Below, piece by piece: positions 2,873-34,952 of a stretch of 35,827 bases of DNA; position 1 is the stretch's first letter, and the number at the start of each line of letters is the position of its first letter. The notes under the pieces are model-generated. The model worked only from the letters and a program-made list of their open reading frames with translations, was not told where the DNA came from and ran no database searches. Source of the DNA: a virus; IMG/VR virus record IMGVR_UViG_3300046009_008164, positions 1-35,827 of that record; one strand, 5' to 3'. The translations under genes were made by a program, and so were the position numbers.

Positions 2873-5160
2873 TATTGTCTATCTCCTGAACAGTTTAATG
2901 ACACCCCTGTTACGTCAACTGTAACCGTGCCTGATCTTCCCCGTATTCCTGTAGTCATGTTTCCTGATCCGTCCGTGTAAGGAATACCTGTCATGGCACC
3001 AAATCCACCGCCGCCTACTTCTGCCGAACAATTTAGCATAACATTTGGCTTCCATCCTGATGTTGATATTGTAAAGTCTCCAGCTCCGTTTCTTATCGGT
3101 GCCGATGAAACCATATTGCAATCGTCATAAGTTTCAACCAATGGAGTTGATGAGGTTACAGTGTGAGAGGATATTGTTGAGCCAGCTCCTCCAAAAGTAA
3201 AAACACAATCTTTTGCGTTTGTTGTGTTTGGCTTTGTCACCTGCTCCCCCGTCAAAACAGGTCTAGCAATATTCTGAGTCGATGGGCGAACCGTTACGCG
3301 AATATCTACTTGGCCAGAAGTTGCTGACCTGTCTGCTGTTATTGAGTTAGAGGTAACTCCACCCGATGCAGTCTGCTCAAACATTAGTCTGTGCATTTTT
3401 TCAGAAGTATCAGAAATGTTAAATGTTCCGCAAACTGTTCTTGGTGTTGCTGTTGCTACACTGTTTGCACTAACCCCAGATGTAATTTTTTGACCACCCT
3501 CAAAGATTATTGCCTGTGCACTTATAGCTGTTTCAACGACTTGAAATGTAGAAAAAAGACTTCCTGATGTGCCAGAGTTTATAAAATGTGTAATATCAAA
3601 ACAAACATCCCAGAAACCTGTATATGGCGGCACCCATGCAACTGATACGCTTTCACTTCCTGCTGCACAAGTTAATCCACTAGGTGAATTTGTTAATGAG
3701 CAACCAATCTTGGCATTGGATGATCCTGGTCGTAAAACCATATCAAGAGAAGCATTTTCAATTGGAGAGTAAGAGCTGACGCTAACAGTTCCAAGAGTAG
3801 GGTTAGCCCCCCCAATATTCGCATCAATAAACCACGCGCTCGCTTCGTTAGTTACGGCGGTTTGAGGCTTGGCTTGATTAAGGTCCACTCCTTGTTTTTG
3901 ACAAGAAATAGTTAATTCTCCATTAACGGCAATACTTGAGTCTGACCTGTACACTTGAGCTAAAATTTGAGTAGATGATATAGATGTAGCGTTGCCATAG
4001 TAGAAATTATTTCCACCGTGTACCGCAGTAACCTGACAACTAGGCGCTACTGTAAACAATCCTGTTTTGAAGGTACATGTTTTTGTCGTGGTACCCGAGC
4101 AAGATGCAAGCCAATCAAGTGTTTGTGTTGTGATTGTAGCGGAGGTATTAACTCTTGCACTAAATTCGTCTTCGCATTCAGTCGTTCCTTGGCACGGTAA
4201 AGTAACCGTCCGGTTCTCACTTCCCAAATATCCTTTATCAGCAAGAATTGTTCCTGCTAAGAGTGATTCAATCCTTAACTTAACAAGATTGCCTATGGCA
4301 GGGCAAAGAATTGATACGAATGGACTTCCAAGCCATTTTGATTCTGTTGTTGGCAATGTTTGGCTATTGATTTCTGTTGCGCCATTAAAAACTGAAATTT
4401 TAAATGCGTTATTGTTTGATGTTGAATATTCTATATAAGCAAGGCATCCACCGTTTAAAAAATCTGGAATTGCTTTTGCCGTAGTTTCAAAATATTGTCC
4501 GGCTCCACTTGCTACAAATTGAGCGTATTTTGTGTCACCTTCAGGGCCATTAAGATAAGTTTGCTGAGTAAGTGTACCACCCACATTAGTCCATCCAGGA
4601 GATAAGCCATCTTCAAAAGATTCGTTTTCCAAAAGATTTACGCCGCCTTCTCCACCACCTGAACCAGAACCAATCTTTTTAAATAGTGTTCCATCATTGG
4701 TAAACTCTAGGTTTCCTGCATTAACTCGAAGTCTGTTAGGGCCTGTGCCAATGTGCAGATGACCTTTTACTCGTCCGTTTTGTTCAATTGAAGTTTGAGT
4801 TCCAGAAAAAGCGTCAATTGTGTTAGTTTTTAAAACACCAGAATCAAGCCCAAGGTCTTCATTCATTTCAAACTGAGTTGATGAAGCATCCCATTTTAAA
4901 TATTTTCCAGTAGAGCCATTAAAAAGAATTTCCTTATCAACGGCTGCACCATCACCAATTTGTACGTTGTTTCCATCCCACTTAAGCTTTTTTGAAGTCT
5001 TTTCAACCGAAAGCTTTTTGTTTGAAACGCCATCATTGGTATCAAAAACAAGCTGTTTATCATCAGACGTTTGTGGACGGCCAATCTTGACTTGATCCTG
5101 CGGAATGTTTGATTGCGCTAAGGCCATCAATGGCAAAAGCAAAAGCCATAAAAATCTCAT
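2872..5160 (-). CDS. Large fibre-like protein with Sec signal peptide
   Basis: A 762-residue protein. Residues 1-16 (MRFLWLLLLPLMALAQ) form a clear Sec signal peptide. Residues about 30-160 are repetitive beta-rich sequence typical of phage tail-fibre shafts (KLKWDGNNVQIGDGAAVDKE, then TGKYLKWDASSTQF). A Gly/Ser linker at about 164-173 leads to a lectin-like or carbohydrate-binding jelly-roll candidate (NLLENESFEDGLSPGWTNVG). The C-terminal half has repeated cysteines (TTECEDEF, TTTKTCTF, APSCQV, FTFGG) and a Gly-rich tail. The start has AAGGAG seven bases upstream and follows the other fibre gene. A fibre made for export is odd: it could be a surface protein of the infected cell, or a fibre needing periplasmic folding. 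Function is inferred. Confidence 0.75.
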   Translation of the reverse strand: MRFLWLLLLPLMALAQSNIPQDQVKIGRPQTSDDKQLVFDTNDGVSNKKLSVEKTSKKLKWDGNNVQIGDGAAVDKEILFNGSTGKYLKWDASSTQFEMNEDLGLDSGVLKTNTIDAFSGTQTSIEQNGRVKGHLHIGTGPNRLRVNAGNLEFTNDGTLFKKIGSGSGGGEGGVNLLENESFEDGLSPGWTNVGGTLTQQTYLNGPEGDTKYAQFVASGAGQYFETTAKAIPDFLNGGCLAYIEYSTSNNNAFKISVFNGATEINSQTLPTTESKWLGSPFVSILCPAIGNLVKLRIESLLAGTILADKGYLGSENRTVTLPCQGTTECEDEFSARVNTSATITTQTLDWLASCSGTTTKTCTFKTGLFTVAPSCQVTAVHGGNNFYYGNATSISSTQILAQVYRSDSSIAVNGELTISCQKQGVDLNQAKPQTAVTNEASAWFIDANIGGANPTLGTVSVSSYSPIENASLDMVLRPGSSNAKIGCSLTNSPSGLTCAAGSESVSVAWVPPYTGFWDVCFDITHFINSGTSGSLFSTFQVVETAISAQAIIFEGGQKITSGVSANSVATATPRTVCGTFNISDTSEKMHRLMFEQTASGGVTSNSITADRSATSGQVDIRVTVRPSTQNIARPVLTGEQVTKPNTTNAKDCVFTFGGAGSTISSHTVTSSTPLVETYDDCNMVSSAPIRNGAGDFTISTSGWKPNVMLNCSAEVGGGGFGAMTGIPYTDGSGNMTTGIRGRSGTVTVDVTGVSLNCSGDRQ

Positions 5161-5171
5161 TCTAACTCTCC

Positions 5172-6182
5172 TTATTCAGTAAACAGAACATTTGCGTAAG
5201 TGTCCTGTCCATTATCAATCACATTTGAGTCACAGCCAAGGAATCTTGGTGTATCTATTACAGTTCTTGCAGCACTGGCAGAAACAAGGATTCCTGAATC
5301 ACCAGAAACACCGAATCCTGAGAATCTTCCACCAACGATTTTACAGTCATCACCATCAACCTGGAGTCCTGTAATAGTAGCACCCTTGGAAATAGTAACG
5401 CCTCGCTTAAAAACAATTTCAATATTGTTATTTAAAACAACCGGAATAGCTGCTGGAGCTTCACTTCTGAGGACAAGTATTTTCCATCCATCCTGAGCGT
5501 TATCAAGTGCTCCCTTAAGTGTCGCGTGAGTCACCCCTTGGTCAACACCTACAAGGCCCACAATTGCATCATAGTCTGATGATCCAGTTTCATTAGTTGC
5601 AACCATGATCGGCAAAAGAACTCTTGAGTCAGTAATCGCTGCCTGGTTAGCAATACCAGTAGAAGTGGAAACATAAAGCTCTGCAACCTTGATCCATCCT
5701 GCTGGAGTGACCGGAGCAACTGGCGATCCTGCTGGAGTACCAGCGAGATACTGAATCTCAGCTTGCCAATCTGTTGCAATGGTAAAGTTTTGATTTGAAA
5801 TCAAATTTGTAAATTCATCTTTAAATTTGCGAGACTCTGTTAGCGTATTGAATCGCCCGTGGCGTACCACAAGAATATCAATGCGAGGGTTAGAAGAATT
5901 CGGCGTATCAATGTTAAGAGTAACGTCTGCATCCCTCACCAATGGCTTTCTGTCCGGCTCTTTTGAGTCCGTGACAATAGTTTGAAAACCTACACCAGCC
6001 TTTACGACGAATGAAGTTGCTGACTGATAAAGAATCCTAAACGAATCTTTAAAAAAAGCGTTAGTTTTTCTTCCCATCATTTCATAAAGCAAACGATCAT
6101 AAATGCCACGTTCTAAACGCGACTGAAGCGAATTAAGGTCTTGTGAAATTATCTCCTGACCTACGTTAAACTGTTGTCTCAT
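5172..6182 (-). CDS. Tail fibre / baseplate appendage protein
   Basis: A 336-residue protein directly after the P2 gpI-like gene, where phages of this type carry their tail fibre. The N-terminal about 200 residues resemble the baseplate-attaching part of fibre proteins (RQQFNVGQEIISQDLNSLQ, then NPRIDILVVRHGRF). The C-terminal third looks like a short beta-helix (NNNIEIVFKRGVTISKGATI, then LQVDGDDCKIVGGRFSGFGV), as in receptor-binding or pectate-lyase-like folds. There is no signal peptide, unlike the next gene downstream. The start overlaps the upstream gene by four bases (ATGA). The role in host attachment is inferred from position and repeat character. Confidence 0.78.
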   Translation of the reverse strand: MRQQFNVGQEIISQDLNSLQSRLERGIYDRLLYEMMGRKTNAFFKDSFRILYQSATSFVVKAGVGFQTIVTDSKEPDRKPLVRDADVTLNIDTPNSSNPRIDILVVRHGRFNTLTESRKFKDEFTNLISNQNFTIATDWQAEIQYLAGTPAGSPVAPVTPAGWIKVAELYVSTSTGIANQAAITDSRVLLPIMVATNETGSSDYDAIVGLVGVDQGVTHATLKGALDNAQDGWKILVLRSEAPAAIPVVLNNNIEIVFKRGVTISKGATITGLQVDGDDCKIVGGRFSGFGVSGDSGILVSASAARTVIDTPRFLGCDSNVIDNGQDTYANVLFTE

Positions 6183-13718: not shown

Positions 13719-14165
13719 TTTTGCTCCCCGATTCTTCCGCTAAAATTTCATTTAGCCTTTGACAGTATATCTCAAACTGCCAGGGAGTCATAGAATTGAT
13801 CTCCTCCAGGGACACGTTACTGTAGCGTTTAACCCAGGCTATTGTTCTCCAACGGTCACGAACTCCGGCTCCAATTCGTTTCCCTCGGACTTTGTAATCA
13901 TGTTAATTGCTTTTAGGCACTCTTGGTATTCGCCAAAACTTAGCAATCCATCAAGATTTTCTTTCTCTGCCATATTTAGCTTTTTAGAACCAACCTGAAC
14001 AAGCAAAAGCTTCAAAAGCTCTTTTTGAACAAGAACTCCAAGATAAGCCTGATTGTCACTAGCTTTTTTTCCGGCCAACTGTGAAGCCGTTTCAATGTCG
14101 CCAATTTTTGGCTCACGGAGATAGATTTCTTTTTTAGTGGATAAAGTAAACTTGTAGCCTTGCAT
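13708..14165 (-). CDS. Tail assembly chaperone, -1 frameshift fusion product (gpGT/E+E'-like)
   Basis: Reading from the same ATG as the short chaperone, a -1 slip at G-GGA-AAC (13878-13884) avoids the TAG at 13839 and continues for about 57 codons to TAA at 13708, giving about 152 residues. The extension contains TIAWVKRYSNVSLEEINSMT and PWQFEIYCQRLNEILAEE, coherent helical coding sequence without an independent start. Lambda G/GT uses the related heptamer GGGAAAG, and P2 E/E' also uses -1 slippage. Such pairs bind the tape measure and recruit tube subunits. The extension overlaps the tape-measure ATG. The reading frame and slippery site are directly visible; slippage itself is inferred. Confidence 0.85.
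13839..14165 (-). CDS. Tail assembly chaperone, unshifted product (gpG/E-like)
   Basis: A 108-residue acidic helical protein starting MQGYKFTLSTKKEIYLREPK, between the tail tube and tape measure genes. I chose the ATG at 14165, preceded by AAAGGGG at five bases. An in-frame start 54 bases upstream would run through a strong hairpin and gives a poor N-terminus (MGWGLRAPYL). The protein ends with EFVTVGEQ after the slippery site, so most ribosomes would make this form and a minority the fusion. The role, coating tape measure before tube polymerisation, follows from position and the conserved two-product layout. Confidence 0.85.
   Translation of the reverse strand: MQGYKFTLSTKKEIYLREPKIGDIETASQLAGKKASDNQAYLGVLVQKELLKLLLVQVGSKKLNMAEKENLDGLLSFGEYQECLKAINMITKSEGNELEPEFVTVGEQ
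13878..13884 (-). promoter_or_regulatory. Programmed -1 frameshift slippery heptamer
   Basis: On the minus strand the bases read G-GGA-AAC in the chaperone frame, fitting X-XXY-YYZ. It is one base from the lambda heptamer. It lies about 40 bases before the zero-frame stop, and the -1 frame is open from here to 13708. No convincing downstream pseudoknot was identified by eye. Confidence 0.85.
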
Positions 14166-14195
14166 GAAAACCCCTTTTTTTATCATTATCAGGTA

Positions 14196-14212
14196 GGGGG
14201 CACGAAGCCCCC
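14196..14212 (-). terminator. GC-rich hairpin after tail tube gene
   Basis: A six-pair stem of GGGGGC and GCCCCC with loop TTCGT on the minus strand lies 16 bases past the tube stop codon and before the chaperone ribosome site. No U-tract follows directly, so it is more likely a partial terminator, attenuator or 3'-end stabiliser than a full stop. It resembles the TTCG hairpin behind the major capsid gene. Confidence 0.55.
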
Positions 14213-14227
14213 ATCCCATTTTAAAAC

Positions 14228-14650
14228 TTAGATACGGATTCGACCAGAAGCTTGGAAGTTCATCGTCTTGGTCACTTTTTCATTCAAGCCAGACTGAGTT
14301 TTGTTCAGGCTGAATTGAGCGTCAAAATAAACATAAGATGCACTTGTACCATCAGGATAGTTCTCTGTGGTGATAAATGTATAGTCTGAAACGCCAATGC
14401 CATTAAGGTTATTGGTGATTAGAGCATCAATAAAGCTCTCTAATGTATCGTTTTTAACTTCCATATCAAAAGAGCCTGACCATCCTTCGATAGACTGATC
14501 CCCTTCTGGTACTGGTGCGCCAACATAGAAAGCACGGCTAAAGCTGCTGTCTTGGTTCACGCTTACATTGGTGATTGTATCAACGACAACCTCTGCGCCA
14601 TCTTGATACAATTTAAAACTGGCCTGATGACCGCGAATTGAAGCTGCCAT
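14228..14650 (-). CDS. Tail tube protein
   Basis: A 140-residue protein immediately after the sheath gene, the fixed place of the tube subunit in contractile phages. It is beta-rich (RGHQASFKLYQDGAEVVVDT, then GWSGSFDMEVKNDTLESFID) with a strand-rich end (MNFQASGRIRI), as expected for the tube fold. GAGGAG lies eight bases before the ATG. The hairpin directly after the gene may shield this abundant mRNA or lower expression of the following genes. Confidence 0.86.
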   Translation of the reverse strand: MAASIRGHQASFKLYQDGAEVVVDTITNVSVNQDSSFSRAFYVGAPVPEGDQSIEGWSGSFDMEVKNDTLESFIDALITNNLNGIGVSDYTFITTENYPDGTSASYVYFDAQFSLNKTQSGLNEKVTKTMNFQASGRIRI

Positions 14651-29008: not shown

Positions 29009-30639
29009 AATGCTCCCACCTTGTACTTATTGTTGACCAATCCCCATAGCATTTCAAGGGAATCTGGCCCGTCATCATGCGTACCCTTTGGAAAGTCATA
29101 AAGCTGGTTCATGAACTCCTGGGATAAGTTTCTGTTGAACAGGATTAGTCCATGTGCCACTTTGGGCTCAATTGAGTATATCCGTTTTTCCTTGTTCTCA
29201 GTCAGATAGATTTCATAAAACTTAATCTGGATCATTTTCTTAAGCTCTTGCTCAATTCTTTTTCTTTCTTTGAGAATGTTATCCAGTAGTAATTCGCGGA
29301 ATAAGTTTGTTTCCACCCCAAACTTAAAGTAATTAAGCCGAGCGTGTAAGTCGAATATTTCCCTGATGAAAACACTAGGCGCAACCCGCTTAAGATAAGC
29401 TTCATGAACAAATAGCCGATTCCTCTGATCTGCATAACCCGATAAGATTGATGTGAAGTCAGGCTTCTTATTTGATGTGACTTTTCGCTGGCCAGTAGAA
29501 GGGTCAATCGTCCCGTATGCCGTGAGCATATTCCAAGGGATAAGCGTGTTAGTTTTTTCAATGAACAATCCCTTTTCTTGCTCTTGATACCACCAAATAT
29601 TTTCAGGGGCGAAAACCTTTTCCTCATCACTCATTGGAGAGTTTTGTTTTTCCTTCATAAATGACCGGATACCAGTTTCGATGATTTCTTCCTGGAGAGC
29701 ATAATAAGGCTCTTTTTCTGGCCATAAAACTTCTGTGCCTTTTAGCATTTCAGCTTCATTTTGCATGAAATATGCTTTGGCATTTATGATCCTGTCACCA
29801 TCATCCAGGTTACAATAAATGCCTTTCCATTTGTCCCATAGGTCTTTTCGTTGTGACCATGATTCGATTGCTCGATATTCTGCGGATTGATACCTGGGAT
29901 TGTTGATTAGCTTTACCAGCAATGATTCGCGGTGAAGAACAGTGCCAACCAGCTCAATGTTTGTTTGTTCATCACCGATTTTGGAAATAACATCATTGTA
30001 CCAATTGAGCTGCTTTTCTCTGAGCATTTCACTTTCAACTTCTTCAGAGTGTTCAATATCATCCAGAATGATTTTCGTTGGTCGAACGTCACCAAACCGG
30101 ATTCCTCGCATTTCCGTACCAGAGCCAAGCGCAAGAATACGGCATGGATGATCTGCATTGTGAGCAACAAAATCTGTCGAACCAATTTTTCTGCTTGGTA
30201 TAAAGTTACCGAAAGCAGAAATAAGATCATCATTGCCAATGAACTCGGATTGTATGTCTTTGACTTTTTGTACTGCCTGAGCGTCGGTGTTAGATATGAT
30301 GACAATGAACTTCTCCAATCGGTAGCAAACGTCATGGATCGGCTTAATAAGAACTTTATTCGTACTCTTGGCGTATCCGCGAGGTGCGGCTGAAGCCCGA
30401 CGAATAGCTCTCTCGCCAAATTTGTACTGAGCAAACGTATCTCGATGAAAGCGATTGAAAGCGTGTCGGCAATAATGCGGAAAAAAAGTGATAGCGAATA
30501 GCTGAATATCCGTAGCACACCGATGAATAAGTGCTTCCATAAAAGCATCATAGTCATTTTGTAAGTTTTGCAAGAGCCGCGAGAACTCTTCCTGGGGCAA
30601 GTTTCTTAGACTCTCCACCAGCTCCATTTTCAGATTCAT
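29005..30639 (-). CDS. terL: Terminase large subunit
   Basis: A 544-residue DNA-packaging motor. It has an N-terminal ATPase: Walker A-like SAAPRGYAKST near residue 85, adenine-binding CATDIQLFAITFFPHYC before it, and Walker B ILDDIEH near 193. The C-terminal RNase-H-like nuclease includes D in YGTIDPSTGQ and the FPKGTHDDGPDSLEML near the end, the DD motif of this fold. I set the ATG at 30639, with GGTGG five bases upstream, which overlaps terS by 86 bases; a later ATG at 30540 lacks a ribosome site. Motifs are clear. Confidence 0.95.
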   Translation of the reverse strand: MNLKMELVESLRNLPQEEFSRLLQNLQNDYDAFMEALIHRCATDIQLFAITFFPHYCRHAFNRFHRDTFAQYKFGERAIRRASAAPRGYAKSTNKVLIKPIHDVCYRLEKFIVIISNTDAQAVQKVKDIQSEFIGNDDLISAFGNFIPSRKIGSTDFVAHNADHPCRILALGSGTEMRGIRFGDVRPTKIILDDIEHSEEVESEMLREKQLNWYNDVISKIGDEQTNIELVGTVLHRESLLVKLINNPRYQSAEYRAIESWSQRKDLWDKWKGIYCNLDDGDRIINAKAYFMQNEAEMLKGTEVLWPEKEPYYALQEEIIETGIRSFMKEKQNSPMSDEEKVFAPENIWWYQEQEKGLFIEKTNTLIPWNMLTAYGTIDPSTGQRKVTSNKKPDFTSILSGYADQRNRLFVHEAYLKRVAPSVFIREIFDLHARLNYFKFGVETNLFRELLLDNILKERKRIEQELKKMIQIKFYEIYLTENKEKRIYSIEPKVAHGLILFNRNLSQEFMNQLYDFPKGTHDDGPDSLEMLWGLVNNKYKVGAL

Positions 30640-31114
30640 CGTATCCACCGGATAATTTAATTAGCATATCTAACGCTTTAAGTCGGTCAGACCGCTTGAA
30701 GCTAAATGATTTTGATTTGGAGTAGCCATCTTTGCCATGTGATTCTGAGCGCGAGTAGGAAACGCCATCCAGGAGCCCAAGATTTGCGTCAGGCTTGATT
30801 TCAAGGTGCCCCCCTTCGCTTACCTGGACTAATTCCTCCATGCCGTCAAAAGCGATTTTAACCAGCAAATCAGTCGCTTTGTTTAAATCGAATTTGTGTA
30901 GTTCGTTGACTCGTTGCTTTTGTTTATCGAGGTGGGACTGGATATACGCAGCTATCCTAGGTTTTGCTAGGAGCGCAATAGCATGAACTCCAGCAGCCTT
31001 TTCAGACATTTTGTACCCTGCATCTAGTACGGCGCGCGTACCATTACCACCGTTCATGATGTAGTGCTCGCAGAATTGAATTTGTCGGGCGTTTAAGCCG
31101 TCTAGTGGGTTCAT
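30554..31114 (-). CDS. terS: Terminase small subunit
   Basis: A 186-residue protein. The N-terminus (LNARQIQFCEHYIMNGGNGT, then RAVLDAGYKMSEKAA) is the Terminase_2 / XtmA-type DNA-binding helix-turn-helix region, which recognises the pac or cos site. A central helix (SHLDKQKQRVNELHKF) mediates ring assembly. The last 30 residues, rich in Gly and Lys, would contact TerL. It is the first gene of the late block. The repeat-rich gap lies directly upstream. Confidence 0.92.
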   Translation of the reverse strand: MNPLDGLNARQIQFCEHYIMNGGNGTRAVLDAGYKMSEKAAGVHAIALLAKPRIAAYIQSHLDKQKQRVNELHKFDLNKATDLLVKIAFDGMEELVQVSEGGHLEIKPDANLGLLDGVSYSRSESHGKDGYSKSKSFSFKRSDRLKALDMLIKLSGGYDESENGAGGESKKLAPGRVLAALAKLTK

Positions 31115-31199: not shown

Positions 31200-31370
31200 A
31201 TGAGGCAAACAATCTTAGCTTTGGTCTTGGCTCAGTTCTTGTTCTACCAGGATGAGCTGCCAATTGTGCAGGACGACGATCCTGAGCCCCAGCATCTTTC
31301 ATGGGAACTTGGTGAGCCTGATAATCAGGTTGAAACTGAGGTAATATACGAACCAGCAAGCGAAGATTAG
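31200..31370 (+). CDS. Possible plus-strand 56-residue protein with hydrophobic start
   Basis: The only plausible gene on the plus strand: ATG at 31200 to TAG at 31370. The product begins MRQTILALVLAQFLF, resembling a signal peptide or membrane anchor, then is strongly acidic (VQDDDPEPQHL, DNQVETEVIY). The reverse-frame alternative is a proline/arginine-rich sequence of poor quality. The ribosome site is weak (AGGG twelve bases upstream). A GCGGTTACC / GGTAACCGC inverted repeat directly follows the stop. It may be chance, or a divergently transcribed regulator. Confidence 0.4.
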   Translation: MRQTILALVLAQFLFYQDELPIVQDDDPEPQHLSWELGEPDNQVETEVIYEPASED

Positions 31371-31371
31371 C

Positions 31372-31635
31372 GGTTACCTGGTTACCAGGCTAGTTACCAC
31401 CTGGTAACCGCGCTATGTCATTGATTTTGTTCTTATTATTATTATTAGTTACCAAGTTACCAGATAATAATAATAAGACCCCAGGCGAGGAGGAGGAGGA
31501 GGAGAATCAAAATATAAGGGGGTAGGGGGGGTGTACCCTGTTTTTCTGGTAACCTGGTAACTTTTCCGAAAAAGTCAATGATCTCAAATAGATGGACGAT
31601 TACCAACTGGTAACTTGGCTTGGTAACTGGTAACC
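31372..31635. repeat. Iteron-like GTTACC/GGTAAC cluster, candidate origin or control region
   Basis: Eleven exact copies of GTTACC or its complement GGTAAC lie in about 260 bases. Forward copies start at 31373, 31381, 31393, 31448, 31456; reverse copies start at 31403, 31548, 31556, 31609, 31622, 31629. Pairs are often exactly eight bases apart. About 0.1 copies would be expected by chance. The stretch separates the early/replication genes from terS and lies near the primase-helicase gene. Outside this gap the motif occurs only singly. It may bind an initiator or repressor. A replication origin or operator is inferred. Confidence 0.75.
31432..31477. repeat. Perfect 14-bp AT-rich inverted repeat around two iterons
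   Basis: Arms CTTATTATTATTAT (31432-31445) and ATAATAATAATAAG (31464-31477) are perfect complements; the 18-base loop holds two GTTACC copies eight bases apart. The low melting energy would suit an unwinding element. A GAG repeat (six copies, 31487-31504) and a G-run tract (31519-31531) follow on the same strand. Confidence 0.8.
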
Positions 31636-31639
31636 AAAC

Positions 31640-31846
31640 TCACTCAAAAAGGTCGTCTGACCGTTTTCTGAGGGTGTCGATGATGTAAACCAGCTCCATG
31701 TGGGTCAGGTCGTCACCAATAAAAGTGTTGAGGGATTCTGGCGAGTCGTAGAAGGCAATGACGAATTTTGTTGATCCGGCGAGCTTTTCCAGCATTTCTT
31801 CCGGCGTTAATTCTTTTGGTCTAAATGGTAAAAGTTTATCGTCCAT
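31640..31846 (-). CDS. Small acidic protein, unknown
   Basis: A 68-residue protein: acidic N-terminus, then STKFVIAFYDSPESLNTFIG and LTHMELVYIIDTLRKRSDDL. The core FVIAFYD...LNTFIGDxLTHMELVYxIDxLxxR is seen in many small phage proteins. The first ATG has no ribosome site; the ATG at 31795 has GGAAG near it and is an alternative start. It is separated from the upstream gene by the terminator, so it may need its own promoter or read-through. Function unknown. Confidence 0.6.
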   Translation of the reverse strand: MDDKLLPFRPKELTPEEMLEKLAGSTKFVIAFYDSPESLNTFIGDDLTHMELVYIIDTLRKRSDDLFE

Positions 31847-31861
31847 GACTAATTATGGCAT

Positions 31862-31887
31862 AAAAAAAGGGCTTTTTAAGCCCTTTT
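31862..31887 (-). terminator. Intrinsic terminator containing a stop codon
   Basis: On the minus strand AAAAGGGCTT pairs with AAGCCCTTTT around a three-base loop and is followed by a T-run. The TAA of the ribbon-helix-helix-like gene (31876-31878) lies at the loop, so a ribosome ending there would sit on the hairpin. It would end the replication-gene transcript. Confidence 0.85.
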
Positions 31888-32082
31888 CCAATGTTCTTTT
31901 GCTATTGAGTAATGACTTTTTTTACCCGTTTTGGGTTTCTTTTTTGGCTCAAAATCATCATCAATAAGCCCTTTTCTTTTGAGTTCATCAAACACAAGTT
32001 TGTTAATAATATATGAAACTGAGACATTTTCATCGTCTGCCAGTTTGCACAATTTTGAGTAAACAATTGGATTGGTAATCAT
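31876..32082 (-). CDS. Ribbon-helix-helix-like DNA-binding protein candidate
   Basis: A 68-residue protein. Residues about 14-36 (ADDENVSVSYIINKLVFDEL) have the strand-turn-helix pattern of short RHH/Arc-type repressors: E-N-V-S-V-S, then a helix with hydrophobic I, L, V and F at the packing positions. A very basic tail (KKKPKTGKKS) follows. It lies just downstream of the primase-helicase and next to the iteron cluster, so it is a good candidate ligand for GTTACC repeats. The match is by eye only. Confidence 0.6.
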   Translation of the reverse strand: MITNPIVYSKLCKLADDENVSVSYIINKLVFDELKRKGLIDDDFEPKKKPKTGKKSHYSIAKEHWKRA

Positions 32083-32083
32083 T

Positions 32084-34567
32084 TTAAACCTCCGGCATTT
32101 TGATAATTATTCCCTTGGTCGCCGATCCGGCGTTATAGCCTTTTATCTTCATATTCTTTCTCGGCTCAATGCAATATTCCTTATCCCTGGTTAGGATTCT
32201 GGCGTAGTCGCTCCACTTGGGAACGATCTTTTTGAGCTTGGAGCTATTGGATGCCAGGAATAGGCGTTTGCTATCAATTACCCTGATTCCTAGTGAAGAT
32301 AATAGGGCGGTAAATTGGCATGAATTACCATCCCCATATTCCGGTTTGGATTGATTGACCATAACCTGTTCAATGATCCTGGCGAGTGTCTTATTCTCAC
32401 GAATATCAGGGTTACAGTTCATTATGTCGTGGTAACAAGATTCTGAGTCCTGGGATTGGTTTGATTCCATGTAATCGGATTGGATCAATCCATAGGTTTC
32501 TACAACGCTATCCAATTCTGCTGTTGTGATCGGCTTTCTGGATGAATATACCCAAAAGCAAGCCACGGCTGCGGATAGCTGATCTGCGAGGCGTGATTCC
32601 ATCCGGTAATGGTCGCGGAAATGCCTTTTGCAAATATTGATGCTGGATAGGATGCTTGGGATAGCATTAAAAGCTGTGGTGAATAGGTTTGCCTTATCTT
32701 TTGAGATTAGGCTGAAAACGGTGGAGAGTTCATCAAACTGCTCTGCGGTCTGATTCTTTGGTGGTGTGATTTCCACCACGAAGAATCTGGAAGCGTCTGC
32801 TGAGTTAAAATTCACGGTCTGGATTGATCCCATGAGGAATAGGCATTGGGTGTTGGTTCGGATTGCATCACCGTGAGCTGATCCTCTTAGGACTTTGGCT
32901 TCACTGTTTGTGCTCATTTGTCGTGCGAGTTCCATGATTCCATCAATACGGCCAGAATCCGGCTCAGACTCATCAAAACAAATTGCGCGAGCATTGTTCT
33001 TTAGTTCCTGGCGAATCCCTGCGGCGGTCGCGTTCATGGTTAGAAGGGAGTTTGGAACCAATTGGCTGCACCACTTAACGATTTCAGACTTTCCGTTTCC
33101 TCGCTGTCCTGTGAGCCATAGGTGAAAACGCCAAGGTAATACTGAGAAGATTTGTGCTTGGATGATCCACGCCGAAAGATAAAGGTAATCCTTTGGGTTT
33201 TTGTAATGGATATTCATGAATCCGGTTAATAGGTAATCCAGCTCATCTTGATCTAATTCTCTTGAAAGAGCGTGTTCTGATTTGACCAATTTTTGGTAAT
33301 GGTACTGAGAGATTGGATTAACCTTTGGCAGTATTTCCTGGCCATTGTTTACGATGAAGTGTGAGCCATCTTCCCAAACGCCGATTCCACGAACTTTCTC
33401 AGGATTGAATAATCCGGCCTGACGGCACTGATCCATCAATTTGCTGGCCACTTCTTTCCAGGGAACTATGACGTTATCACTCTCCTCATCTTTTATGCCG
33501 TAGGTTTTTTTCCACCATTCAACGGGAATTAGCTGGAGCATATTTAGTACGTTACTGTGACCGGATGCTGATATTCTGATAATTTGGTTATTATCCGATG
33601 AAGAGTAATAATACTCTGATTCCATGTATCCGAGGCAATGAAGCTCAGTGAAGTCTAGGCGATCAATTGCCAATTGTTCACGGAGTTTATCAATTCCCTC
33701 GAATTGGTGAAGGTCATTGAAGTCACTCCAGGCATCGTTCTTTATGCCGAATTGAGGAACCCTGATAACTATGTTGGCGTTTTGCTTTTGTGCCTGACGG
33801 GCATATTTTTCCCCCACGCCGTTTTTGTCGCGGTCGGCGCAAATGACGATCCGGCAATCCGGCTTGATCTTTCTTAGTTCTTTAATCGCCTTGGGTATGT
33901 TTCCGGCGTTAAAAACGCAAACGGATTGATTTGCCGGAAATGCCATCTGGATACTGGCGGCGGTGGCAAAGCCTTCTGAAACATAAATGACTTCTGAATC
34001 AACCTTAGTCAGTGGGCAAAAACCGTATTCAATCTCAATTCCACTTGAAAAACGCTTTTCAAACTTTCCGGTTAATTCATTTTTGAATATGCGCTGGACT
34101 CCAACGAACCCACTTGAGTTATAAACGGGTATGAGTAGGACTTCATTCTGGTCAACTCTTGAGATATAGCTATCTGTTACGCCTTTATAATCCAGGTAAG
34201 GATGAAGCTTTCCGGCGGTGGCACGGGCAAAAATGGGCTTCCACTTCTCGCGGCACTCTTTATGCTTGCGCTGCTTTTCCATTTCCAATTTGGCATTGGA
34301 CTCCTGGACGTGCTTTTTATAGTTCTTGATGAAATTACGGTCTTTATTGAGGCTGGTATCCCATGAATTTATGGTGTGCTGGTCGCCTTGTCTCCAAGAG
34401 CCGTAATTGATCTGGGAATATGAATTGCCCTTGTATTCCCATGTGTGCCCAACGTACCAAACATGGTCTTTATCCCCTGATCGGTGGATTTTACCATCCA
34501 GTGTTAATGCGGTAATTTTTTCAGCATATCTGCTGTTGATTTCTTGAATAGCATTTTCTATTATCAT
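32084..34567 (-). CDS. TOPRIM primase with P-loop helicase domain
   Basis: An 827-residue replication protein. TOPRIM domain at about 190-290: E198 in VIYVSEGFATAASIQ, then ICADRDKNG (D245, D247) and SDFNDLH (281-287). C-terminal P-loop ATPase: Walker A at 487-494 (TGQRGNGKSE) and Walker B at 529-533 (ICFDE), with R-finger-like RHFRDHYR further on. The fused primase-helicase is typical of phages and of P4-type initiators; no zinc finger is visible at the N-terminus. It would prime and unwind phage DNA. One base separates it from the RHH-like gene. Confidence 0.9.
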   Translation of the reverse strand: MIIENAIQEINSRYAEKITALTLDGKIHRSGDKDHVWYVGHTWEYKGNSYSQINYGSWRQGDQHTINSWDTSLNKDRNFIKNYKKHVQESNAKLEMEKQRKHKECREKWKPIFARATAGKLHPYLDYKGVTDSYISRVDQNEVLLIPVYNSSGFVGVQRIFKNELTGKFEKRFSSGIEIEYGFCPLTKVDSEVIYVSEGFATAASIQMAFPANQSVCVFNAGNIPKAIKELRKIKPDCRIVICADRDKNGVGEKYARQAQKQNANIVIRVPQFGIKNDAWSDFNDLHQFEGIDKLREQLAIDRLDFTELHCLGYMESEYYYSSSDNNQIIRISASGHSNVLNMLQLIPVEWWKKTYGIKDEESDNVIVPWKEVASKLMDQCRQAGLFNPEKVRGIGVWEDGSHFIVNNGQEILPKVNPISQYHYQKLVKSEHALSRELDQDELDYLLTGFMNIHYKNPKDYLYLSAWIIQAQIFSVLPWRFHLWLTGQRGNGKSEIVKWCSQLVPNSLLTMNATAAGIRQELKNNARAICFDESEPDSGRIDGIMELARQMSTNSEAKVLRGSAHGDAIRTNTQCLFLMGSIQTVNFNSADASRFFVVEITPPKNQTAEQFDELSTVFSLISKDKANLFTTAFNAIPSILSSINICKRHFRDHYRMESRLADQLSAAVACFWVYSSRKPITTAELDSVVETYGLIQSDYMESNQSQDSESCYHDIMNCNPDIRENKTLARIIEQVMVNQSKPEYGDGNSCQFTALLSSLGIRVIDSKRLFLASNSSKLKKIVPKWSDYARILTRDKEYCIEPRKNMKIKGYNAGSATKGIIIKMPEV

Positions 34568-34598: not shown

Positions 34599-34952
34599 TC
34601 AGTTTAAAGTAACATTTAATCTGGCCCTTATTTGTTTTGAAACATCTTCTTTATCCCTGCACAAAATGTAAAGCACTCCCATTGAATGACAGAAAGCTTG
34701 CCATGCTTTTTGTTCTTTTGATTGCTTTGCATTACCAGTTTTAAATTCAATCTCTATGATTAGCGTATATTCCGAAAGTGGAAGCCATCCCCAAGCATCT
34801 GCCATTCCAGGCTGATTGATCTTTATTGGCGTGTTGTTTGCCGTATAAAAAAGCCCAACGTGACGCTGGAAAATTCTTATCTTTGGAAATTTCTGTTGGG
34901 TGAATAGGATTGTTTCTTGAAGCAATCTCTGGTGTTCAGCGTATTTATTCAT
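34599..34952 (-). CDS. VRR-NUC nuclease
   Basis: A 117-residue PD-(D/E)xK-type nuclease. The order is NQPGMADAWGWLPL (D52), then LIIEIEFKTG (E69, K71), then SKEQKAWQ (Q81), as in VRR-NUC proteins that cut DNA junctions or flaps. It precedes the primase-helicase gene and probably resolves replication or packaging intermediates. Gap to the next gene is 31 bases with no clear feature. It overlaps the upstream gene by eight bases. Confidence 0.88.
   Translation of the reverse strand: MNKYAEHQRLLQETILFTQQKFPKIRIFQRHVGLFYTANNTPIKINQPGMADAWGWLPLSEYTLIIEIEFKTGNAKQSKEQKAWQAFCHSMGVLYILCRDKEDVSKQIRARLNVTLN

Follow-up and report, generated by a model that had tools for sequence, protein, structure and literature searches.

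Between the replication and the packaging genes of a virus known from IMG/VR record IMGVR_UViG_3300046009_008164 (35,827 nucleotides, all of which were analysed and are here called the window) lies a gap of about 260 bp crowded with copies of the hexamer GTTACC and its complement GGTAAC. What is this array for? An earlier note on this DNA had proposed a replication origin, a partition-like site or a master operator for the late operon. The evidence assembled below makes it very probable that the array is a cis-acting replication-initiation site of a ~43-kb dwarf myovirus, either the origin itself or an assembly site of the kind that crr represents in P4.

The array and its gene neighbourhood

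A hexamer scan of the window confirmed the 11 exact copies described in the earlier note, which span 31373-31634 and occur in both orientations. Their density had been called far above chance, and it is: in 60 Markov shuffles of the window, the top non-simple hexamer cluster within 264 bp reached 6 copies, against 11 in the real array. The exact eight-base spacing reported for several pairs is correct for three of them, the last pair being spaced by 7, and so is the nine-pair hairpin, in which GCGGTTACC (31370-31378) pairs with GGTAACCGC (31403-31411). Only one such array is present in the window, and likewise in the overlapping contig that was searched.

The copies are arranged as a mirror image. 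When a degenerate twelfth copy (ATTACC at 31599) is counted, the symmetry becomes complete, with a mirror partner within 2 bp for 12/12 sites. Using exact sites only, 10 of 11 are mirror-matched, a value not attained in any of 2000 sets of random sites. The right outer cluster mirrors the left one within the same 2 bp. The array is built from the following parts:

31373-31408, no strand assigned: left outer iteron cluster, GTTACC at 31373, 31381 and 31393 (plus) and 31403 (minus)
31431-31478, no strand assigned: perfect 15-bp inverted repeat TCTTATTATTATTAT / ATAATAATAATAAGA, nearly AT-only, enclosing the inner left iteron pair
31448-31461, plus strand: inner left core pair GTTACCAAGTTACC, copies at 31448 and 31456, 8-bp spacing
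31462-31547, no strand assigned: centre of 86 bp with an AT stretch, a GGA-repeat purine tract and G-runs, 47% GC
31548-31561, minus strand: inner right core pair GGTAACCTGGTAAC, copies at 31548 and 31556, 8-bp spacing, mirroring the inner left pair
31599-31634, no strand assigned: right outer iteron cluster, ATTACC at 31599 (plus) and GGTAAC at 31609, 31622 and 31629 (minus)

The inner left pair is bordered by AT-rich tracts, and the 15-bp inverted repeat is a candidate melting element. The centre has a GC content of 47% versus 43% in the flanks and is therefore not AT-rich as a whole. Its purine tract and G-runs occupy one strand at 31484-31533, and a sibling contig (L028) shows a one-base difference in a G-run of the centre.

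The main genes are all encoded on the minus strand. A VRR-NUC gene, a Toprim primase/AAA+ helicase and two 68-aa ORFs lie to the right of the array, and the terminase small and large subunits lie to its left:

34599-34952, minus strand: VRR-NUC / resolvase-like gene, upstream of the primase-helicase, a position kept in relatives
32084-34567, minus strand: Toprim primase / AAA+ helicase, 827 aa, Walker A GQRGNGKS, the proposed initiator
32084-32494, minus strand: C-terminal domain of the primase-helicase, roughly its final 136 residues, a candidate for iteron binding by analogy
31876-32082, minus strand: 68-aa small protein, RHH-like by eye, no homologues found, not a conserved partner
31640-31846, minus strand: 68-aa small ORF between array and primase-helicase, no homologues found
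30554-31114, minus strand: terminase small subunit, across the array from the primase-helicase

The window core lies 523 bp from the helicase stop, and the two small ORFs (449 bp) come between helicase and array, unlike in most relatives. These ORFs have no Pfam or PHROGs match and no homologue beside other arrays. Between terminase and array, a plus-strand 56-aa ORF (MRQTILALVLAQFLF..., 31200-31370) runs against the direction of the main genes; it has a signal-peptide-like start and no PHROGs match. A terminator-like GGGCTTTTTAAGCCC followed by a T-run (31861-31887, minus strand), not listed by the automatic scan, lies at the end of the RHH-like 68-aa gene. A megablast of the array region against phage records and an Rfam search returned no match.

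The virus has terminase and portal genes of its own, together with genes for a major head protein, a tail sheath, a baseplate and an amidase; to judge from the predicted genes, the last four mark it as a myovirus. Contig G001, which contains L004, overlaps both window ends, which gives a circularly permuted map that closes at about 43.26 kb. On the closed map, the detrended GC-skew minimum falls at 30.1 kb, near the array but weak (range p 0.04).

Recurrence of the array beside helicase genes

The nearest named primase belongs to Bdellovibrio phage phi1422 (JQ177062/NC_019525; 29.6% identity), where a 12-copy GTTACC array (14007-14311) starts about ten bases past the primase-helicase stop codon. 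The two arrays share the hexamer, the 8-bp spacing of the inner pairs and the outer clusters to left and right; the centre measures 83 bp in phi1422 versus 86 bp in the window, and the outer clusters stand 64 bp versus 44-45 bp beyond the inner pairs. Unlike the window, phi1422 has a strongly AT-rich centre (20% GC) and an array that adjoins the primase stop. Its record carries no annotation of the array, and the consulted passages of the genome paper describe neither an origin nor these repeats. The GC-skew minimum of phi1422 lies 8 kb away from its array.

To look further afield, the core was expressed as the pattern GTTACCNNGTTACC-N(70-100)-GGTAACNNGGTAAC, with the reversed pattern as control. 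It matched 43 IMG/VR contigs versus 1 for the control, and the control match (L049) was dismissed as a satellite repeat. Sorted by centre length, 10 contigs matched at 39-69 bp, 43 at 70-100 bp and 17 at 101-131 bp, the last figure including four already in the 70-100 bp set via an extra repeat. Contigs L028 and L004/L048/L091 come from the window's own virus and add no independent evidence. A genome collection yielded 14 more matches, from Streptococcus, Agromyces, Roseomonas, Aureimonas, a cyanobacterium, Gemmatimonadetes and MAGs labelled Lokiarchaeota and archaeon; misbinning can affect MAG contigs, which leaves archaeal hosts unproven. The centre is lower in GC than the flanks in 50 of 58 arrays, the window being among the exceptions.

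The constant neighbour of these arrays is a helicase. Among 80 tabulated loci, many of the remainder being cut by contig ends, a Walker-A ORF ends no more than 250 bp from the core in 40 (counted by hand). The ORFs of 52 loci fall into four similarity clusters, and the helicases found at arrays are VapE-like proteins, Toprim primase-helicases, DUF927 proteins with a Cch HTH and DUF5906 proteins, mostly with the array just 3' of the gene. Several individual loci deserve mention. At L010 3225-5204, a GTTACC array stands beside a Toprim protein in which an AAA_25 (RecA-like) helicase replaces the usual helicase domain. On L052, a short contig binned as Lokiarchaeota, a helicase-like ORF is followed after 48 bp by a GTTACC core (3752-3871). 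Two near-identical GTTACC arrays from one archaeal MAG (L058 2714-2824 and L059 78-188) have RHH-like and PIN-like ORFs close by and no helicase seen nearby.

A set unbiased by the repeat was obtained by selecting relatives by protein alone, which gave 39 non-redundant primase-helicase relatives with enough downstream DNA. When hexamer clusters are compared across the whole locus, the strongest one lies downstream of the helicase stop in 28 of the 39, a count that includes at least one false positive, since the cluster in L092 is a simple repeat (a one-directional GCAGCA tract) and was rejected as an array. The word drifts among these relatives (GGTAAC, CGTAAC, GTAACA, GATAAC, GCTGCA, GGCACA), and the mirrored layout is kept despite this drift in L094, L096 and L108, which were inspected by eye. 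No array is visible in the flanks examined of L092, L093 and L095, which are among the closest relatives (36-41% identity; the L092 flank comprises 528 bp downstream). In 98 Streptococcus genomes, such a cluster lies 3' of vapE in 20 of the 22 strongest VapE loci and occurs in 6 of 12 loci of another class, with a Cch HTH (both counted by hand). The comparison with related phages proposed in the earlier note thus places the array 3' of related helicase genes in phi1422 and in dozens of elements.

Iteron unit, putative initiator and known origins

How large is the repeated unit? Across 57 non-redundant arrays, in which the hexamer itself is fixed by the search pattern, agreement within arrays is 0.68 at base -1 and 0.61 at base +7, versus 0.27 and 0.25 between arrays, and it holds also for copies other than mirror partners. 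The iteron is therefore about 8 bp long, with a GTTACC core common between elements and one element-typical flanking base on each side; in the window, +7 is A (GTTACCA) in 10 of 11 copies. This unit equals the dominant 8-bp spacing, so the inner repeats abut. A search of open-licence literature turned up no relevant account linking either GGTAAC or VapE to iterons.

The proposed binder is the primase-helicase. Its AlphaFold model (pLDDT 90.8) was compared by Foldseek with PDB structures, and the best match was SCCmec Cch (E 4e-10); SaPI PriRep1 with dsDNA (E 3e-7), NrS-1 helicase and MCMs were also matched, with modest TM-scores (about 0.2-0.45), the multidomain proteins being compared whole. 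SaPI Rep and Cch2 bind their iterons via the C-terminal domain, and by analogy the C-terminal domain of the primase-helicase probably does the same. This assignment is an analogy with partial support, because iteron similarity tracks C-terminal identity in Streptococcus VapE after correction for the core (partial r 0.38, Mantel p < 0.001), the corresponding covariation in the window's own helicase family is not significant (p = 0.13), and the isolated C-terminal domain model has no significant PDB fold match.

What is observed is a symmetric array linked to the helicase gene; from this we infer binding, melting and initiation in the following order. The Toprim primase/AAA+ helicase would bind the iterons, probably through its C-terminal domain. 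The mirrored inner pairs would nucleate two oppositely facing helicase rings flanking the centre, and the outer clusters would raise the local concentration. The AT tract would then melt, the rings would transfer to the single strands, and the protein's own primase domain would lay the first primers, from which a host or phage polymerase would carry on bidirectionally.

This layout has counterparts in known systems. SaPI/PICI origins lie 3' of rep, with two iteron sets flanking an AT-rich region. The window likewise has two iteron sets flanking a central region, with all 12 sites mirror-symmetric, and an initiator whose predicted model has the Cch/PriRep AAA+ helicase fold. PICI/SaPI iterons lie immediately 3' of the initiator gene, as they do in phi1422 and most relatives, whereas the window has two intervening small ORFs. 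Unlike a PICI/SaPI, the window is a non-satellite tailed phage, with a Toprim primase-helicase and a centre that is not AT-rich overall; its own terminase, portal, head, sheath and baseplate genes mean that it is not a PICI, though the array would work like a PICI origin. P4 shares with the window a Toprim-type primase plus helicase and short iterons (GTTCACC/GGTGAAC) directly 3' of alpha, annotated as crr, which occur in direct pairs and in inverted orientation. It differs in having a separate crr and ori, a repeat word one base longer and a pair spacing of 9-10; the array does not carry the P4 type 1 iterons GGTGAACA, its word being GGTAAC. In SCCmec, the Cch2 C-terminal domain similarly binds short direct repeats 3' of its gene, but the iteron is AAGTG in three copies, and no mirrored array is described in the consulted passages.

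A further parallel comes from pRN1, whose replication was shown by experiment to depend on a ~100-bp 'stem-loop' 3' of orf904; the authors of that work also pointed to a comparable structure in a phage (PMC4234260). At about 5086-5181 of pRN1 (L222, NC_001771) we find TGTCCATAGTGTCCA, a 64-bp AT-rich centre and then the mirror image, so that two TGTCCA copies 9 bp apart are mirrored across the centre. This is the core geometry of the GTTACC arrays, 3' of a P4-family primase-helicase; the differences are another word, an inner core only and the authors' reading as a stem-loop. On our own reading of the sequence, the pRN1 'stem-loop' would correspond to the inner core of the present array design. 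BIP-1, which is cited as a stem-loop origin, was also considered, and no multi-copy iterons were found in it.

Alternative readings and wider meaning

The operator and partition functions of the earlier note would both assign the array to the 68-aa RHH-like protein (31876-32082), acting on late transcription or segregation. The gene is indeed adjacent, its product looks RHH-like by eye and the array lies upstream of the terminase genes. However, the protein has no family match and no detectable homologue in 50,697 phage records or beside related arrays, promoter-like matches stay at chance level, and the constant neighbour is the helicase, no conserved adjacent partition protein having been found. 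Neither function finds support, and we consider this reading very improbable. Simple repeats such as the GCAGCA tract of L092 occur elsewhere, but the shuffle test, the symmetry, the recurrence in unrelated contigs and the helicase adjacency make a functionless chance or low-complexity repeat close to inconceivable.

Recognition of a DNA secondary structure rather than of iterons, as proposed for pRN1, where the stem is required (PMC4234260), would turn the array into a stem-loop (cruciform) origin. The whole array region does fold into a single long, imperfect stem-loop (-42.8 kcal/mol, z = -4.05), and the phi1422 inner core and the pRN1 origin fold likewise. The window inner core alone, however, folds barely better than shuffles (z -1.12), which argues for iterons over structure, and its two inner spacers differ. 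Since the agreement at -1 and +7 extends to copies that are not mirror partners, a repeated protein-binding word explains most of the pairing, and a structural origin seems distinctly improbable. It is somewhat easier to imagine, though still unlikely, that the helicase binds the array, which is needed in cis, and that strand synthesis begins at another site. P4 carries two sites with type 1 repeats about 4.7 kb apart, the array 3' of alpha, annotated as crr, and the annotated origin; against this reading stand the single array in the window and in the searched overlapping contig, and the use of the array 3' of rep as the origin in PICI elements. A replication origin, the remaining proposal of the earlier note, is well supported by the arrays 3' of related helicases, the PICI/SaPI layout and the Cch/PriRep1 fold.

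In a wider sense, GTTACC in one mirrored geometry may serve as the origin word for self-loading AAA+ initiator helicases from at least four families, in bacterial and perhaps archaeal phages and mobile elements, with element-specific flanks and occasional replacement of the word. If the pRN1 origin represents this design in its minimal form, the iteron origins of P4 and SaPI and the stem-loop origin of pRN1 would form one class. We advance this generalization tentatively and stop just short of favouring it. The array occurs in ordinary tailed phages beside several helicase families and with one recurrent DNA word, and it provides a simple sequence signature for locating origins in uncultured phages. 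It also allows the pRN1 origin, which was mapped by experiment, to be read in a new way, and it makes the choice and switching of origin words by self-loading helicases testable.
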